Assembly: GCF_964019385.1 (NCBI RefSeq)
Contig: NC_088643.1
Span: forward strand, 73,710,014 to 73,774,013
Origin: Sycon ciliatum
Lineage: Eukaryota > Porifera > Calcarea > Leucosolenida > Sycettidae
DNA: 64,000 nt
Direction of reading: 5' to 3'
The position numbers and the translations under genes are program-made. Below, piece by piece: positions 48,072 through 58,299 of this stretch (position 1 is the stretch's first letter; each line of letters starts with the position of its first letter). The notes under the pieces are model-generated. The model searched no databases, had not been told where the DNA came from, and saw only the letters and a program-made list of their open reading frames with translations.

Positions 48072-48298
48072 GTTATTGTTGATGCACAGTTCGATTACAC
48101 AAAAAGTGACAAATTCCGTCGTTAGAATTGATTTTATCCAATTCCGTCGAATCCGTCAATTCTGAAGAGAGGGCGGAATTTCTCTAATTCTGGCGCCAAA
48201 ATAATTGCACAGTCGGTGTGTTACCGGTCTGGTCATGACTCAAGCGCGCGAAGAGCCTCCCTGGCCGGCGTGTGCGCGATGGGTCCAAGCAAGAGTCC

Positions 48299-48706
48299 AT
48301 TATAGCAATAAAAACTGCTTTATGCAGTTTTCTAAAAAAGGTTATTGTGTTCTAGTCCATGGACCCCGTCTAAAAAGTAAGAAATTACCGAAATGTGATA
48401 GCTGAAAATTAAAATTTCACACAAAACCTCACAATAATCACAACACTTGAAAATCTGCTTTCAACTTGAACTTGTACTGCACCAACAATTGGCAACATGC
48501 ATGCATAGGAAAGAGGATCACGAGGGGAAAAGGTCTTCTACATGTAGCTTTTAATTCTGTGTGTGATTATTGTGAGGTTTTGTGTGAAATTTTAATTTTC
48601 AGCTATCACATTTCGGTAATTTCTTACTTTTTAGACGGGGTCCATGGACTAGAACACAATAACCTTTTTTAGAAAACTGCATAAAGCAGTTTTTATTGCT
48701 ATAATT
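48299..48706. repeat. 400-bp foldback inside the left terminal repeat
   Basis: ATTATAGCAATAAAAACTGC at the outer side and its reverse complement at the inner side bound ~145-bp arms. Each arm contains the same CTAGTCCATGGA and GTGATAGCTGAAAATT words. The same structure closes the right end. Confidence 0.85.
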
Positions 48707-49689
48707 TCTTTTGTTTTTTCTGTCACCAATCAATGGAATGTAAATCAATATGGAAATGATGGCCTTCACATCATATCAAGAGGTTTATGTACTCTTGATC
48801 ATATCAATACCGTATTATACGCATTGATGTGCAAGCCTTTTCTTGCAGAAAATGGCACTAGCATAATGCATGTTCTTCTGCGGGGGAACAGATTATTAAC
48901 CTTTCTAGGGGCTCCCGTAAGAAGACCATAGGTCTGTGGGAAACACCCTAGTAAAATAAATAACAATAATAACATGTGAGTAGTGGTGGTTATACTTTTT
49001 TTATACACAGGTCATTCTGTGCATGTTGCTGTTGCAGAATTTCATGACTCATAAATTTGTCTTGCCTTTCAGATTTCCCCACCCTCTATCAGATTTATTT
49101 GAGAAATGTAGCCATGCGCAAGGTGCGTGTCGCAGATGTTTTTGTTGATTCTTTGTTTATAATGGTTTATAATCATGGGTTATCGTGATAAGGTCATCCA
49201 GCATCATTATTGCACTGAAATCGTAATCCTGTTGATGTCGTTACAAGGTTTGGAAGTAGTTCAATGACTTCAAACTGTTAGTCCACGATTTTCTAAAACA
49301 ACACAGCAAAGGAGGAACAATAAACATGTATTAAAATGTAAACAAATACATTGCTGAGTCCGACACCTCGTTCCAACAACTACACTGATCCTGAGGATAA
49401 AAGGGTCAAGGCTATGGTTGGAGGTACTGATACTGAGAGATAAACAAGGCACTCCGTGATAATAAAATCTTACACATCTTTTGGTGAGTATGAATGATAT
49501 CCAGTCGAACCTCTTTAGGACGAACACCAAGGGACAGATGGTATTTATTCTGTGAGTTTGTCTTAACCTATTTTATAACCAGTGAATACAATTATTTCTC
49601 CAATAGACATACGAATAGATTTCTTCTTCAGCGAAAGATTCTAAGCCACACCGACTCATTGACTCGTCTCGTATGAACCAAAAGAGTCA

Positions 49690-49973
49690 CTAGAGAGGTT
49701 CTGCAAAACGAAAATGCGTACAAACTTTCGCTCTACATCATGAAGTGCGAAACCTCGCACGAACTTTCGCAACTTTGGACGAGAAACTTGCAGGGAACGC
49801 GAAATGAACTGTTGTAGGAAATTTCGTGAGATCGGGTCATGGCGTACGTGCACTTGGCCCGCGCAAACCACGAAAATGTGCAGAACGCAAAGTTCGTGCA
49901 AAAATTCGTACACACTTTCGCAAGGACTGTCGCGAAACTTCGTTCGAATTTTCGTTTTGCAGAACCTCTCTAC
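49690..49973. repeat. ~285-bp foldback inside the left terminal repeat
   Basis: TAGAGAGGTTCTGCAAAACG at the left pairs with CGTTTTGCAGAACCTCTCTA at the right; ACTTTCG and GCGAAA words alternate between. The matching copy in the right repeat spans about 56719-57004. Confidence 0.75.
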
Positions 49974-50884
49974 TGAAACAGCAACAGAGAAAGTACGATA
50001 CATGTACCGCACATTCTTGCAGGTACTACAGGTACTACAAACAGATTGAAGATCGTAATTCTTGCTTTGGCGGCACGAAACTTTATTTGGGGCAGCGCAA
50101 TCTCGGCGGTACTCACAAATCAAACAGCCCAGACTCGAGTAAACAAATCCAATCATACAAGTACGAGATTTTCACGAGACGAGACTGCACCCATTGGCTT
50201 GTTTCGTATGAAGCAAACAAGTTACTGAACCTCTCCACAATGGAGATTTTCCCTGATATGAGTATTTCGACAACACATCTAACATAAGCCTTACCGTCAA
50301 GAAGGTGAACTCGCGTTCTTCGCACACTGTAGGCAAGGGCAAAGAGATAAAAATGGATCTAAATCCGAATAAAATCAGCACACGTTTCCGTAAATGAAAG
50401 GGTGAGCATAAGCAAATGAATCGAAGGAAACTGGTCAACTCAGAGATCACCTGTGTCATTGAGTATTCTGTAAAAGGAGGCCTCGGCAGCGGAACAGCTA
50501 AATTTAGAAAGGAGATCCTGTCAGCTTTTCCATTATTTATTGCATTCCGCCCAAAATCAGCACACTTTTCGTAAATGAAAGAGTCAACACAAGCAAATGA
50601 ATCAAAGGGAACTGGTCAACTCACCTGTCATTGAGTAATATTCCGCGAAAGGAGGTCTCAGCAGCGCCGAAACGAAATAAGCCAGGCCAGGAGACGAAAT
50701 ATCCGAAACAGCTCATGCAAGAAGCAGTTCCAAAGAAGGAAGTTCCTCGTGCATGCACATCCGAAAAGGCAACAACAAAAAGTCTGCAATGCACACGCAT
50801 GCGGCCAGCCGGCCGCGCGATGGTAGGAGCCATGGAGTAGCTCCCCGGTCCAGGACCAGGTACCGAGCATCTTACGTAGATAAT

Positions 50885-51006
50885 CAAGCGAGGTACAGAG
50901 GGCTTGATGGCTGATCAAAGCCCAAGGGTCCAGCCCGAGGGCCGTAGGCCCAAGGGCTGGGCCCGAGGGCTTTGATCAGTCATCAAGCCCGACTGTACCT
51001 CGCTTG
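50885..51006. repeat. ~120-bp palindrome (CAAGCGAGGTAC…)
   Basis: CAAGCGAGGTACAG and CTGTACCTCGCTTG form the outer pair. Inner pairs are GGGCTTGATG with CATCAAGCCC and GATCAAAGCCC with GGGCTTTGATC, around a GC-rich core. It has no counterpart by the right repeat, so it is probably a later insertion with the 51-kb sequences. Confidence 0.8.
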
Positions 51007-51599
51007 AATATGCTTCAGACGATCCCCAACATTTTTTTTGATTTTGAATCAAACTCGCTTTATTCTTTGGGTGATCTCGAGTGTGGACAATGTCGGCCTT
51101 TCGTTTGGGATTTCAGAGCAGCCTGAAGTCTAAAGTGCATGTCGTTTTCGTCCCGTTCGTAAGTTTCACACAGAGATTACAGCAAAGGGAAAGTAATGTA
51201 AAACGTGTTTCGTGAGAAATTTCTCAGGACTCCGTGTCAAGAGCCAGACGTGGCTGAAGAGTCACGGAAGTATTTTCACTTCCACCACACACGCCTTGCT
51301 CACGCTGCATACTGCTGAGAGTTCTGCGGTGCTGGAGCTAGATTTCCAACTCCACAAGTTGAGAGCCACCGGATCCCCGACCACCACCCCTATCGGTTTC
51401 TTGTTCTTATAGCCAGATCACCTTGAAAAGACTGAGATTGGGCATGATCAGGGCTTTGATGGTTTTGTCGTACAGTTGCCAATGGCAGCGGGCTTTGATG
51501 GTTTTCTCGTACAGGTTGTCAATGACAGCGGGCTTTGATGGAATATCAAAGCCCGCTCTCCGAGGCTGCTGATTGGTCGTAACCTAGCAAAGAGCACGT

Positions 51600-51880
51600 G
51601 GGTCGTTTGAAGTAGAAATCTACGTAGCTACGTAGACAACGTGTCTGAATAGCGGTGTCGTTAGGTAGCGCCATGTGAACACAATAATAGAAAAGCTGAC
51701 AGGATCGCTTTTCTAAATAAACTGTTTATTTAGAAAAGCGATCCTGTCAGCTTTTCTATTATTGTGTTCACATGGCAAGAAAAACGACACCGCTATGCTA
51801 CGTAAGTTTCTACGTAAGGTGCTCGGTATTTCACTTAGGCTACGTAAGTCTCTACACGGCTGTTACGTAGATCACAAAAT
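51600..51880 (+). promoter_or_regulatory. Cluster of TACGTA words upstream of the RAG1-like gene
   Basis: CTACGTAGCTACGTAG, then CTACGTAAG twice, TCTACGTAAGG and TTACGTAGATC fall within 280 bases. TACGTAGA and TACGTAAGG also mark the inner edges of the terminal repeats (about 50875 and 55709). They could be promoter elements or transposase binding sites; neither is shown. Confidence 0.4.
51651..51794. repeat. ~140-bp nearly perfect palindrome upstream of the RAG1-like gene
   Basis: AGCGGTGTCGTT (51651) pairs with AACGACACCGCT (ends 51794). The inner 51671-51775 is a perfect hairpin centred at 51722 that carries GATCCTGTCAGCTTTTC. That word also occurs inside both terminal repeats (about 50516 and 56070). 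Confidence 0.85.
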
Positions 51881-52336
51881 CGGACATTCAAAATGGCGTC
51901 ATTTTTTTGAAACTTTTTGAATTTTTGAACGCGACGGCCCCCAGAGAATAGCTGAGAATTGCATTTTTCACGTTGGTATCCAGGCTATTTTGGCTCCCAT
52001 CGTCTCCCATCGACACGGTTTACCATACAACCGCGATTTTCGTCCAGGGGAAGCTTCAAGGAACGCATTGATGCCTTTTGGATCGTCTTTCCCAAGAGGC
52101 GACAGGTTTCTGTCGCCATGTCGCCTCCACGTCCTTTGTTCTTTCGATTCCCAAAACTGCTCTACTTTCATTGCTGCCTACATCCCGGCTCCGAGTTTTC
52201 GCAGCTGCTTGCTGTGTTTTTGGTGGCCCTAGAGACCTTCTATAGCTCGAAAATCGCGCTCTTGTCCCAGATCGTGCAAAGGAAGTCTCGATCGCGCATC
52301 GACATTTTAGCCTTGTTTGTTGGTTTCTGCTCTGCG

Positions 52337-55300
52337 ATGGAGCACCACTCGAGTATTCTTGAATCCGTGTGTCGCATTGGTGGGCAAAAACTTGCCAGTG
52401 CTAGTCACAAAACTCCATATCCGGTGAAGAATTATGTTGAAGAGATCGCCAAAGTTTTTAAAATTGATGTTTCCAAAGATTCCCCTGACGTGCATCCCCA
52501 GTACATGTGCTCACTTTGTCAATTTGCTATTGCACGTTCAATGAGAGATGACACATATAAGTATTGTAGTGGGGGCTGCAATGGCCCAGTTACATGGCAA
52601 CCACATACGAGATCTAACTGTGCCGTATGTAAGAGTGATGCTGTACGAGCCAAGGGCGGCCGTCCACCGAAACGGAAAGCCGTCAGTGAACTGCGTGGCC
52701 AAGCGGCAAAACGACAGACATCAACGGCATCAACATCAGCAGAACTGCCAGAAGGCAGTCCTAGCTCTCAGCAAAGACGCACCAGCAGCAGTAGCAGCGG
52801 TGACACCAACACAGTAGCACACACCACTGATAGTCAAACATCCGCAGTTACTTTGGACGAGATTTCGGCGCACGCAGCGCCTATGTATCGGGCTGAAGCA
52901 GCATTAGAGAAAGAGCGGTTTATTGACAGTGGAGCTGTGCAGGAATGCATGATATGTTTGCAAGTGGTAAATGGAGCAGTTCAAGCCAAATGCTGTGAAA
53001 ATATATTCTGCTCAACATGCGTGCACACGTGGATGAAGAGTCACAATACATGTCCAGTATGCAGACAGCCAATGGCACTGGCGACACTGCAGAAGCCATG
53101 CAAGCTAGTGTGCAATATGGTTAGCAAGTGGGGTGTACATTGTGACTTCCATGAACCAGCATTGTCAGGTTGCCCCGCAACCGTTCGCCTCCATGAATTA
53201 CGAGGTCATGTCACATCATGTCCGTTCAATCCATCCACATCCTCAGGAACGCCCATTCGTACTGCAACCAAAGCTGCAACAGTGGAGGAGATCTTAGCAG
53301 CGTCACCATCAAAGCTACGGGGCGATGTGAGTGACAGACTGACCTGTCACCTTGTGTCCGCCAAAGCAGAAGATGGGAGGCTGGAAGTGAAAACCAGCAG
53401 CCAAGGAAGACCGCAAGTTTTCATGCGAACAACAGTTGGCAGCAAGCAGCCGGAGGAGGCATCAGCCAGGACGCTGAAACGACGGTCACTGGAAATGGAG
53501 CGCATCACAGAGACAGTTTGCACCACAGCAGATGCAACACGGCATGGCGTTGCTGGACTTGGCGCTACCAGCATCAAACCACCTTCAGGCACTGCCCTTG
53601 CCATCAAGGCCGATCTAAGCCTTCCTTGGGCGCAACTCCGGAAGCTGCGCAGATGGCTCCGCTCCTTCGGAGTTCAGCTTGAATCGGAGAGAAGCATTCG
53701 CTCATTCATCGCCACCACCTTGCCGAAATACACAGTGAAGCAGCTCCCCTTTGTCAAGCGGACTGGCGAGTTGTCACTTGCTGCAGCTGTCTACTTTCCA
53801 AACCTAACCGACATCATTATCCACTACCTCGACATACTTGACAGCGGCAGTAAGCTGACATGGCATGATGGCGCCATCCCAGAAACGGAGATATGGGTCA
53901 AGCTGGGCGGTGACCATGGTAAGACATCATTTAAATTCGTGATGCAAATCGCCAACACCATGCATCCAAACTCACTCGCCAACACTGTGCCAATCTGCGT
54001 GTTTGCAGAGAAGGACTTGCCGGCAAACCTGGAAACTGCACTCTCAATGTATCGGAACCAAATTGCAGAGCTACAGGGCCAGAAATGGAAAGGCAAGACC
54101 ATTGTGCCTTATCTGTTTGGTGATTACGAGTACCAAACCATGAACTACGGCTTGTCGGGTTCCAGTGGCGTAAGGCCTTGCCTCCATTGCTTGTGCACGA
54201 AGAAAGACATGCAGGTCCCACCAGCGAACCGCGACGTACAGTATGGAGCACGGTCCTTAGAGAAGATGGCGGAGGACTATGCACAGTTTACTAGCGCAGG
54301 TGCTCTGCTGTCAAAGGCAAAGCTGTATAACAACACCATCCGACCAGTCCTATTGCCAGTGCCCGTTGCGCGCGCCATCATTCCAGTGCTGCACCTGGAC
54401 CTCGGTGTATTCCCGTGGATCTTTGATGTATTCACACGCGAGGTCCGTCTTCTGGACATGCAGCTTGCAGAACAATGCGACGCTGAAGAGCAAGACAGTG
54501 GACGGTTTAGAGCCTTGTCAACTGCAAATCACAAGTTGTCTGGCTGCAAAACAGCGTTCTCGGAAGCAACAGCGAAAGCCACCGCTCTGGAGAATCATCT
54601 GCACTTCATCGTCTTGTTTGGCCAGCAACAGGGCATGGCGATAGAAGCACTCGCAGGCGTGCTACAACGGGAGGTTGAGCAAGCACAGGCCGACACAGAG
54701 CAGTGTAGCTCGCAGCTGAAGATTGCTGAAGCCGAACTGGCCAAGTTGCGCCGCAGCAAGGATGTTCTCGGCCCGTGCGAAGCGTCCATAGAGCCAGTAC
54801 TGCAGAAGAACATTATCCATCGGCAGGCCTATCACGGCGGTGCTTTTGTAGGGAACCATATCCACCGTGCCCTCAAGCCCGCCGTGATCACAGCTATCAC
54901 TGAGGCCCCAGCAATTGTCATTGGAGATCGGTGCCCAGCTCTGCAGAATGACGCTCAAGTAGTCAGTGAGCGGTACAAGTCCCTGTTCAGCCAGTACGCA
55001 GCGTGCAGATCTTCCTTCAGCCATTGCAACAAATGTGGAGAGGAGGAACTGCAGCAATTGGAGCTCTCCATTGCCTCGTTCTTACAGAAATGTCGGAGCG
55101 AGGTGGTGGAGAGAGGCTTAGGTCACATCACTCCAAAGCTGCACCTCCTTGAGGAACACACTGTGCCGCTGATGCGGAGAGTGCACGTCGGGCTTGGTCT
55201 ACTGTCGGAACAGGGCGCGGAAGGAATTCACGCCGAGTTCAACCTGCTCGAGAAGAGATACGGTTCCATTCCCGGCGAGCTTGAGCGCCTGCATGCTGTT

Positions 55301-55414
55301 GCAGAACAACACCTCGTATGCACTCTGCCAGACGTTGCAGATCAACGGCCCAAAGTTCGATCGAGGCAGCGGACTGCTCCATCGCAGGCAGATCAACCAG
55401 CCAGTCCGCCATAA
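52337..55414 (+). CDS. RAG1-like transposase (N-terminal zinc region, RING, DDE-type core)
   Basis: 1025 residues from the ATG at 52337 (GCGATGG); the frame is open upstream to about 51959 without family signal. Residues 11-98 follow the RAG1 N-terminal pattern: VCRIGG, EEIAKVFKIDV (37-45), DVHP (51-54), C58-x2-C61, WQPHT (87-91), C95-x2-C98, then basic GGRPPKRK. A RING finger spans C204-x2-C207 to C239-x2-C242 (ubiquitin-ligase fold), followed by a Cys/His zinc region (~262-290), as in RAG1. The core has KLGGDHGKTSFKF (D526), PYLFGDYEYQ (D596) with C615-x2-C618, HLDLGVFPWIF, a coiled coil (~765-812), and LLSEQGAEGIHAEFN (E958/E962). These are candidates for the DDE triad. The length is close to vertebrate RAG1 (about 1040). 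It is the only gene inside the long inverted repeats. Confidence 0.85.
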   Translation: MEHHSSILESVCRIGGQKLASASHKTPYPVKNYVEEIAKVFKIDVSKDSPDVHPQYMCSLCQFAIARSMRDDTYKYCSGGCNGPVTWQPHTRSNCAVCKSDAVRAKGGRPPKRKAVSELRGQAAKRQTSTASTSAELPEGSPSSQQRRTSSSSSGDTNTVAHTTDSQTSAVTLDEISAHAAPMYRAEAALEKERFIDSGAVQECMICLQVVNGAVQAKCCENIFCSTCVHTWMKSHNTCPVCRQPMALATLQKPCKLVCNMVSKWGVHCDFHEPALSGCPATVRLHELRGHVTSCPFNPSTSSGTPIRTATKAATVEEILAASPSKLRGDVSDRLTCHLVSAKAEDGRLEVKTSSQGRPQVFMRTTVGSKQPEEASARTLKRRSLEMERITETVCTTADATRHGVAGLGATSIKPPSGTALAIKADLSLPWAQLRKLRRWLRSFGVQLESERSIRSFIATTLPKYTVKQLPFVKRTGELSLAAAVYFPNLTDIIIHYLDILDSGSKLTWHDGAIPETEIWVKLGGDHGKTSFKFVMQIANTMHPNSLANTVPICVFAEKDLPANLETALSMYRNQIAELQGQKWKGKTIVPYLFGDYEYQTMNYGLSGSSGVRPCLHCLCTKKDMQVPPANRDVQYGARSLEKMAEDYAQFTSAGALLSKAKLYNNTIRPVLLPVPVARAIIPVLHLDLGVFPWIFDVFTREVRLLDMQLAEQCDAEEQDSGRFRALSTANHKLSGCKTAFSEATAKATALENHLHFIVLFGQQQGMAIEALAGVLQREVEQAQADTEQCSSQLKIAEAELAKLRRSKDVLGPCEASIEPVLQKNIIHRQAYHGGAFVGNHIHRALKPAVITAITEAPAIVIGDRCPALQNDAQVVSERYKSLFSQYAACRSSFSHCNKCGEEELQQLELSIASFLQKCRSEVVERGLGHITPKLHLLEEHTVPLMRRVHVGLGLLSEQGAEGIHAEFNLLEKRYGSIPGELERLHAVAEQHLVCTLPDVADQRPKVRSRQRTAPSQADQPASPP

Positions 55415-55704
55415 CACTGACTACACGCAAAGCCAGAGAGGTAAGGTCTAACTCTAACTGTTCACTTCTACTTCCTCCAATAATAATTCTTCTTGATGTT
55501 TTCGACAGCAAGACTTCTGTTCTTACTTCCTTGTCGTTTCAAAAAATATTTGGGTTTAGACCGACTTTACCGAAAGAAAGTACTAAATCCGGCGAAATTA
55601 TATAATTCTATACATTTTGTACTAAGTCGAAAGGATTTTAGTAAATCCGCAGCGATTTCAAACTTTTCGCCGCCATCTTGTTAGATGTCCACTGCGTAAC
55701 AGCC

Positions 55705-58299
55705 GTGTCTACGTAAGGTGCTCGGTATAGATCTACCAACGGTTGGTAGCCTCGTGCTGTGCACGTGCACGGCATGGCAGACATTTTGTTGCATGCAGTG
55801 CATGCATGCAGTCCGTGTTCGGATGTGCATGCGCATATGCGCGAGGAACTTCCTCCTTTGGAACTGCTTCTTGTATGAGCTGTTTCGGATATTTCGTCTC
55901 CTAGATCCTGGCCTGGCTTATTTCGTTTCGGCGCTGCTGAGACCTCCTTTCGCGGAATATTACTCAATATCGACAGGTGAGTTGACCAGTTACCTTTGAT
56001 TCTTTTGCTTGTGTTGACTCTTTCATTTACGAAAAGTGTGCTCATTTTGGGTGGAATGCAATAAATAATGGAAAAGCTGGCAGGATCTCTTTTCTAAATT
56101 TAGCTTTTCCGCTGCCAGGCCCCCTTTTACGGAATACTCGATGACAGGTGATCTCTGAGTTGACCGGTTTCCTTCGATTCATTTGCTTATGCTCACCCTT
56201 TCATTTACGGAAACGTGTGCTGATTTTATTCGGATTTAGATCCATTTTTATCTCTTTGCCCTGGTCTACAGTGTGCGAAGAACGCGAGTTCACCTTCTTG
56301 ACGGTAAGGCTTATGTTAGATGTGTTGTCGAAATACTCATATTCATTGTACATTGGTACGTTACAAGTAAGGCACTGGTCAGTGGCATACTATCGTTGGC
56401 AGTTCCCAATCTGGAGGGAAAGGTTCAAGGACCCATTGACCGAGTTTGCAAAATAAATTCGCATATCAGGGAAAATCTCCATTGTGGAGAGGTTCAGTAA
56501 ACTTGTATGCTTAGATTTGTTTACTCGAGTCTGGGCTGTTTGATTTATTATTTGTGAGTTCCGCCGAGATTGCACTGCCCCAAATGAAGTTTCGTGCCGC
56601 CAAGGCAAGAATTATGATCTGCAATCTGTTTGTAGTACCTGCAAGAATGTGCTGTACATGTATCGTACTTTCTCTGTTGCTGTTTCAGTTGCCGTCATGT
56701 TGCTAAAGAAAGATTCAGTAGAGAGGTTCTGCAAAACGAAAATTCGAACGAAGTTTCGCGACAGTCATTGCGAAAGTGTGTACGAATTTTTGCACAAACT
56801 TTGCGTTCTGCACGTTTTCGTAGTTTGCGCGGGCCAAGTGCACGTACGCCATGACCCGATCTCACGAAAGTGTGTACGACTGTTCATTTCGCGTTCCCTG
56901 CAAGTTTCGCGTCCAAAGTTGCGGAAGTTCGTGCGAAGTTTCGCACTTAACTTCAGGACGTGGAACGGCTGTTTGTACGCATTTTCGTTTTGCAGAACCT
57001 CTCTAGTGACTCATTTGTTTCATACGAGACGAGTCAATGAGTTGGTATGGCTTAGAATCTTTCGCTGTAGAAGAAATCTATTCGTATGTCTATTGGAGAA
57101 ATAATTGTATTCACTGGTTATAAAATAGGTTAAGACAAACTCACAGAATAAATACCATCGGTCCCTTGGTGTTCGTCCTAAAGAGGTTCGACTGGATATC
57201 ATTCATACTCACCAAAAAATGTGTACGATTCTATTATTATGGAGTGCCTTGTTTATCTCTCAGTACCTCCAACCATAGCCTTGCCCCTTTTATCCTCAGG
57301 ATCAGTGTAGTTGTTGGAACGAGGTGTCGGACTGAGCAATGTATTTGTTTACATTTTAATACATGTTTATTGTTCCTCCTTTGCTGTGTTGTTTTAGAAA
57401 ATCGTGGACTAACAGTTCGAAGTCATTGAACTACTTCCAAAAGTTGTATCGACATCAACAGGGTTACGATTTCAGTGCAATATGGTGCAGGATGACCTTA
57501 TCACGATAACCCATGATTATAAACCATTATAAACACAGAATCAACAAAAACATCTGCGACACGCACCTGGTTACATTTCTCAAATAAATCTGATCGAGGG
57601 TGGGGAAATCTGAAATATCTGAAAGGCAAGACAATTTTATGACAGAGTCATGAAATTCTGCTACAGCAACATGCACAGAATGACCTCCGTATAAAAAAGG
57701 TATCACCACGGTCCACCACTACTCACATGTATCCCCGCAGAAGAACATGCTAGTCCCATTTTCTGCAAGAAAAGGCTTGCACATCAATGCGTATAATACG
57801 GTATTGATATGATGTGAAGGCCATCATTTACATATTGATAGGGCATTTCATTGATTGGTGACAGAAAAAACAGAAGAAATTATAGCAATAAAAACTGCTT
57901 TATGGCAGTTTTCTAAAAAAAGTTATTGTGTTCTAGTCCATGGATCCCGTCTAAAAAGTAAGAAATTAACGAAATGTGATAGCTGAAAATTAAAATTTCA
58001 CACAAAACCTCACAATAATCACACACAGAATGAAAAGCTACAAGACCTTTTCTCCTCGTGATCCTCTTTCCTATGCATGCATGTTGCCAATTGTTGGTGG
58101 AGTACAAGTTTAGTGTTGAAAGCAGCATTTCAAGTGTTGTGATTATTGTGAGGTTTTGTGTGAAATTTTAATTTTCAGCTATCACATTTCGTTAATTTCT
58201 TACTTTTTAGACGGGATCCATGGACTAGAACACAATAACTTTTTTTAGAAAACTGCCGTAAAGCAGTTTTTATTGCTATAATGCACTCTTGGTCCAAGT
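55705..58299 (-). repeat. Right long terminal inverted repeat of the RAG1-like element
   Basis: Inverted copy of 48279-50880. The inner edge is TACGTAAGGTGCTCGGTA at about 55711. It contains the matching foldbacks at about 56719-57004 and 57876-58283. Confidence 0.85.
57876..58283. repeat. 400-bp foldback inside the right terminal repeat
   Basis: Bounded by ATTATAGCAATAAAAACTGC and its reverse complement, GCAGTTTTTATTGCTATAAT. It is the counterpart of 48299-48706. Confidence 0.85.

Follow-up and report, generated by a model that had tools for sequence, protein, structure and literature searches.

Gene and element content of the locus

A 64,000-nucleotide stretch of the Sycon ciliatum genome (contig NC_088643.1, positions 73,710,014 to 73,774,013 of the forward strand; hereafter the window, whose numbering is used throughout) contained a complete Chapaev-type element of 3853 bp on the forward strand (51855..55707), with ends placed by comparison with genomic copies. 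On the same strand, the element encoded a transposase of 1025 amino acids (aa) in a single uninterrupted frame that begins with the Met at 52337 and is closed by a stop (52337..55414). According to the list of open reading frames (ORFs), which a gene split by introns would escape, no other ORF longer than 131 aa lay wholly within 51855-55707. Around the element was a long palindromic host repeat (48290..58291), a separate feature with arms at about 48290-50754 and 55837-58291. We hold with high confidence that 51855-55707 is a young, probably autonomous cut-and-paste DNA transposon of the Chapaev group (CMC/CMCT clade), nested in another repeat. The original prediction, made from the sequence of the window, had instead joined gene and repeat into one RAG1-type element with inverted ends of about 2.6 kb.

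Element ends and target-site duplication

The element was bounded by short terminal inverted repeats. The left repeat, CACGGCTGTTACG (51855..51867, forward strand), was identical at 13/13 positions to the reversed right end, CGTAACAGCCGTG (55695..55707, reverse strand; 13 bp, perfect). Target-site duplications of 4 bp, TCTA, adjoined the element on the left (51851..51854) and on the right (55708..55711). The genome holding the window (538 Mb, 313 contigs) was searched for further copies. DNA identity to the window ended at 51850-51855 in all 15 other copies compared on the left side, and the right boundary at 55707 was read from the copies and from a search with the right end, which gave 20 match rows comprising 16 of 17 copies and weaker matches. 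The same termini, CACGGCTGTTACG... and ...CGTAACAGCCGTG, recurred across copies with different flanking DNA each time. These termini (CAC...GTG) agree with the CA...TG ends of the Chapaev/CMCT clade.

In total, 17 copies were examined for duplications and 14 had both ends (13 plus C2:46105654). Outside this count were C2:38461393 and C1:406835, in which the right end was truncated, and C9:25107043, in which it was not found. All 14 copies that could be read at both ends carried a 4-bp duplication, which in one of them was poly-C and uninformative. Other lengths fitted poorly: 3 or 5 bp fitted one of 13 copies (the poly-C copy only) and 6 to 8 bp fitted none.

Ends at about 48290 and 58291 were also considered. 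The outer motif was found in 0 of 20 stretches (both ends of 10 other copies, at the presumed outer distances), and 16 of the 20 did not match the window at all (E up to 1e-5). Because the presumed outer ends were absent from other copies, the true ends were sought, and found, at 51855 and 55707; it is these termini, rather than the long ends predicted originally, that the copies share.

Nesting within a palindromic repeat

The inverted arms of about 2.5 kb were 82-100% complementary in ungapped pieces and 89-94% complementary in three gapped pieces. Both Chapaev ends fell inside the region that they enclose. Arm segment 49200-50200 was a repeat on its own: among the best 40 of 2186 candidates scored in a genome search, the other near-full-query matches were 89-98% identical. 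The palindromic repeat (48290-51850 plus 55712-58291) was highly repeated in the genome. The long repeats also occur without the gene and form a family of their own.

Locus L094 carried inverted arms over most of its length and was uninterrupted across the insertion point, where TCTA was present once. This locus is an empty site in a paralogous copy of the palindromic repeat; the palindromic repeat thus existed before the Chapaev element inserted into it. Long inverted repeats do exist at the locus, while the copies and the empty site show that they are not the ends of the element.

The palindromic repeat also had inner palindromes of 404-407 bp close to each of its outer ends, and its two outer flanks had GTCCAAG in common (7 bp; GGTCCAAG with a shift of one). 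A further interval near 50886-51612, some 730 bp long, was absent from L093 and L094, with a possible 5-bp duplication, GTAGA, at its flanks.

Transposase domains and conserved residues

Three Pfam families matched the transposase, all above the Pfam cut-offs and all on the forward strand. The Chapa domain, which is the RAG1 N-terminal zinc region (RAG1_imp_bd, PF12560), covered residues 3-148 (52343..52780; E = 9.1e-14). A RING finger (PF13639) covered residues 202-243 (52940..53065; E = 1.8e-7), and a DUF1280 segment of the DDE core (PF06918), containing D526, covered residues 422-579 (53600..54073; E = 2.1e-13).

Conservation was read from a protein alignment of 16 sequences of this genome, including the window protein, that were chosen for matching PF12560, PF06918 or the window protein (34-77% pairwise identity). 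Left out were L091, with no Chapa in frame, and L044 and L081, with broken frames. The C-terminal alignment held 14 sequences, L089 and L092 being left out for an incomplete C-terminus. PF12560 and PF06918 were matched by all 16 sequences and zf-RING_2 by 12 (E up to 1). A genome-wide pairing of PF12560 with PF06918 places (50 of 122 and 50 of 150 had the other within 8 kb) was given no weight, as each search scored a part of its candidates and the PF06918 list lacked most members of this family.

A Cys/His cluster (C269, C279, H291 and C295; 53141..53221, forward strand) was invariant in 16/16 sequences and lay within the alignment to RAG1 102-381, at the place where RAG1 has the zinc finger that follows its RING. 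D526 was likewise invariant (16/16), as were the second acidic residue, D596, and the pair C615-x2-C618 (54122..54190, forward strand; 16/16). Toward the C-terminus, H936-x4-H941 and the third acidic residue, E962 (55142..55222, forward strand), were invariant in 14/14 sequences. From this pattern, D526, D596 and E962 would be the catalytic residues, and C615-x2-C618 has a putative zinc role. The two Cys/His pairs, C615-x2-C618 and H936-x4-H941, agree with the C(2)C and H(3-4)H motifs of the CMCT clade.

Copies, age and selection

At least 17 near-identical copies of the gene (96-100% protein identity) were found on several chromosomes. At least 12 of these were full length, and 11 of these 12 contained no stop. 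As 45 of 2110 candidates were scored, the counts are lower bounds. Fifteen copies were taken to the substitution comparison, of which three (L004, L011 and L027) were set aside for a frameshift or indel. Over 649 codons, the 12 copies in frame showed 1 to 34 base differences to the window, with a single one in C2:10285969. Per site, synonymous changes exceeded non-synonymous changes in 11 of the 12; the exception had one change in all. Between relatives L083 and L084, the ratio of non-synonymous to synonymous rates (dN/dS) was about 0.19 in Chapa, 0.11 in the RING-zinc part and 0.07 in the core; dS itself was close to saturation. Given this substitution pattern among copies and relatives, together with the duplications, selection appears to act on both halves of the transposase and the element is likely to have been mobile recently.

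Among other loci, L028, L032 and L034-L037 were Chapaev derivatives having Chapa and parts of the core and no RING match. L089:2-3430 held a Chapaev frame with an Ala/Val/Pro-rich repeat of nearly 200 residues between conserved core blocks. In viral contigs, 30 stretches fitted a pattern for relatives and none was confirmed.

Assignment to Chapaev and proposed mechanism

A 4-bp target-site duplication is typical of Chapaev. Kapitonov and Jurka, as cited in PMC4411706, reportedly described Chapaev transposons with Chapa and RING in 2007 in Repbase Reports. The available descriptions agree with what lies in the window. DUF1280 is assigned to Chapaev transposases, and grouped with RAG1 in a single clade, in the account of PMC3985635. 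The term "Chapa domain" is used in PMC4411706 for the N-terminal part of RAG1, after lancelet and sea anemone Chapaevs, and two Chapaev subgroups are described there in which Chapa is followed by RING, as in RAG1. As characterized in PMC12730594, the CMCT clade has C(2)C and H(3-4)H motifs, CA...TG ends and duplications of 2 to 5 bp. The window element had a DUF1280-type DDE core, Chapa and RING, CA...TG termini and a 4-bp duplication. Judged by sequence, it is a Chapaev by virtue of its DUF1280 core and 4-bp duplication. The Chapa-RING Chapaev architecture is already published, and the window element fits that description.

The ends, the 4-bp duplication, the empty site, the intact gene, and the conserved acidic and Cys/His residues were observed directly, and a transposition scheme may be proposed beside them. 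The transposase (Chapa-RING-zinc-DDE) would bind the short 13-bp ends and, to judge from conservation and alignment, would excise the element by means of a D526/D596/E962 site. The excised element would then join target DNA with a 4-bp stagger. By analogy with RAG1, the Chapa-RING half may have a DNA-binding, assembly, regulatory or ubiquitin-ligase role.

Relation to RAG1

A profile of the family gave a single collinear alignment to RAG1 102-381 (E = 2.2e-25 and 9e-25 with two full-length chains, which we take to be mouse). A single-sequence search of PDB found RAG1 at residues 27-104 and 207-298 of P0001, among many RING proteins (P0001 is the window protein plus four residues before the Met, and its numbering is 4 higher). 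A second stretch, insignificant at 6.2 bits, covered RAG1 880-1006 and placed H936, H941 and E962 on RAG1 937, 942 and 962; with a RAG1 chain carrying Q at 962, its score fell to 4.2. Two listings for the window protein, of 10 and 11 families, did not include PF12940 (RAG1), and neither did the matches listed (25 of 40 families) for the 16 aligned sequences.

Relative L081 came closer to RAG1. Its C-terminal piece shared 37% identity with the window protein (E = 2e-43) and passed the Pfam cut-off for the RAG1 recombinase, PF12940 (27.6 bits vs 25; E = 1e-6). A genome search with PF12940 (E up to 0.001; 7 of 7 candidates scored) matched L081 as its sole locus and found no RAG-like element. L081 (L081:1623-3330), considered as a RAG-like element, turned out to be a Chapaev that is broken and shortened. 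It is a possible sequence bridge between the Chapaev and RAG1 cores. The strong collinear N-terminal match, the weak core matches and L081 together show that homology to RAG1 is firm in the N-terminal half and distant in the core.

The original prediction was sound as to the protein. The 1025 residues form one open frame, and the RAG1-type N-terminal zinc region, RING and zinc region were confirmed by collinear RAG1 homology, with a positive profile check of the N-terminal part. The N-terminal modules are joined in one frame to a transposase core, as had been proposed, with the link of that core to RAG1 being distant (a weak alignment, better by way of L081). In profile comparison, as suggested at the time, the N-terminal part aligned with RAG1 102-381, and the core alone gave neither a RAG1 nor a Transib chain in PDB at E up to 10. 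Placement as a RAG1- or Transib-type element did not hold, the core being DUF1280 and the duplication 4 bp.

Several points weigh against the Chapaev assignment and its tie to RAG1. The likeness to Chapaev was judged from published descriptions and from profiles. Recent mobility is read from the copies, the duplications and one paralogous empty site. Among the 12 PDB chains that a core-only profile found at E up to 10 there was no RAG1 or Transib, and an hhalign comparison of the core with a RAG1 fragment gave a probability of 7.5% (E = 0.0047), which is not strong enough to serve as evidence. These two core results leave the sequence link of the core to RAG1 thin.

Alternative interpretations

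It is highly improbable that the locus holds a RAG1/Transib-type (RAG-like) element with all N-terminal modules, bounded by the 2.6-kb inverted repeats. The strong collinear N-terminal homology would favor such an element, as would the weak C-terminal core alignment and the passage of the broken relative L081 over the RAG1 recombinase cut-off. Duplications of RAG-like elements are almost always 5 bp long in the description of PMC7204232, whereas those found here were 4 bp in 14/14 copies, and the element is on this ground not a RAG1/Transib element. Its core is DUF1280, with PF12940 missing from the families listed for the window protein, and the long repeats are excluded as ends by the copies and the empty site. 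A RAG2-like partner was not found either, the longest other internal ORF being 131 aa (an intron-split gene would escape this count).

Very little probability also attaches to an element of the N-RAG-TP type, with RAG1 N-terminal sequence only, that adjoins an unrelated transposase by chance. Its N-terminal domain would account for the RAG1-like part of the protein, and N-RAG-TP of Aplysia is described in PMC8355894 as made entirely of RAG1 N-terminal-like sequence. In the window, that sequence is fused to a core in one uninterrupted frame, and the original label of an N-RAG-type element does not fit it. PF12560 and PF06918 occur together in 16/16 aligned sequences, core sequence was also present in 20/20 Chapa-bearing loci scanned (18 distinct places), and in the copies both halves lie between the termini.

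Domestication, in which the host would have retained a transposon-derived gene that is not a mobile element, can be given almost no credence: the intact frame and the low dN/dS between two families would suit it, and against it stand at least 17 near-identical copies on several chromosomes, with duplications and ends of their own, and the empty site for the window copy in L094.

Implications and comparison with known systems

Interpreted as a Chapaev, the element corrects an attractive but mistaken view of the locus as a RAG element of 10 kb with giant ends. With its ends and duplication known exactly, this young and apparently intact Chapaev could serve to test the function of the RAG1 N-terminal half in a transposase. 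A broader proposal is tentative, and we regard it as rather doubtful: that the genome holds a large, recently active Chapaev radiation in which a RAG1-type Chapa-RING half is under selection with a core traceably linked to RAG1. If true, this would offer a stand-in for the pre-RAG fusion that is still alive and can be tested, and Chapa-RING would have joined an ancestral core before the split of RAG1 and Chapaev, rather than being added to Transib later. The idea of an ancestral fusion is already in print, as set out in PMC4411706.

N-RAG-TP, as described in PMC8355894, resembles the window element in having RAG1 N-terminal-like sequence in a mobile element. Unlike N-RAG-TP in that description, the window element has this sequence fused to a full transposase core. 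ProtoRAG and RAG-like transposons, as characterized in PMC7204232, are likewise animal transposons encoding a transposase with a RING region and the N-terminal zinc motifs of RAG1. ProtoRAG differs, in the same account, by its RAG1-type core and its RAG2-like partner gene. RAG1, the vertebrate immune enzyme, shares with the window protein the order zinc region, RING, zinc finger and DDE core; unlike vertebrate RAG1, the window gene is a transposon gene, with no RAG2, with a 4-bp and not a 5-bp duplication, and with a core in which the resemblance is barely detectable by sequence. The resemblance to RAG1 is true but already described for Chapaevs, and the element is well preserved and nested in an unrelated repeat. 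It is Chapaevs with Chapa and RING that the window element resembles in Chapa, RING, DUF1280-type DDE core and CAC...GTG ends.

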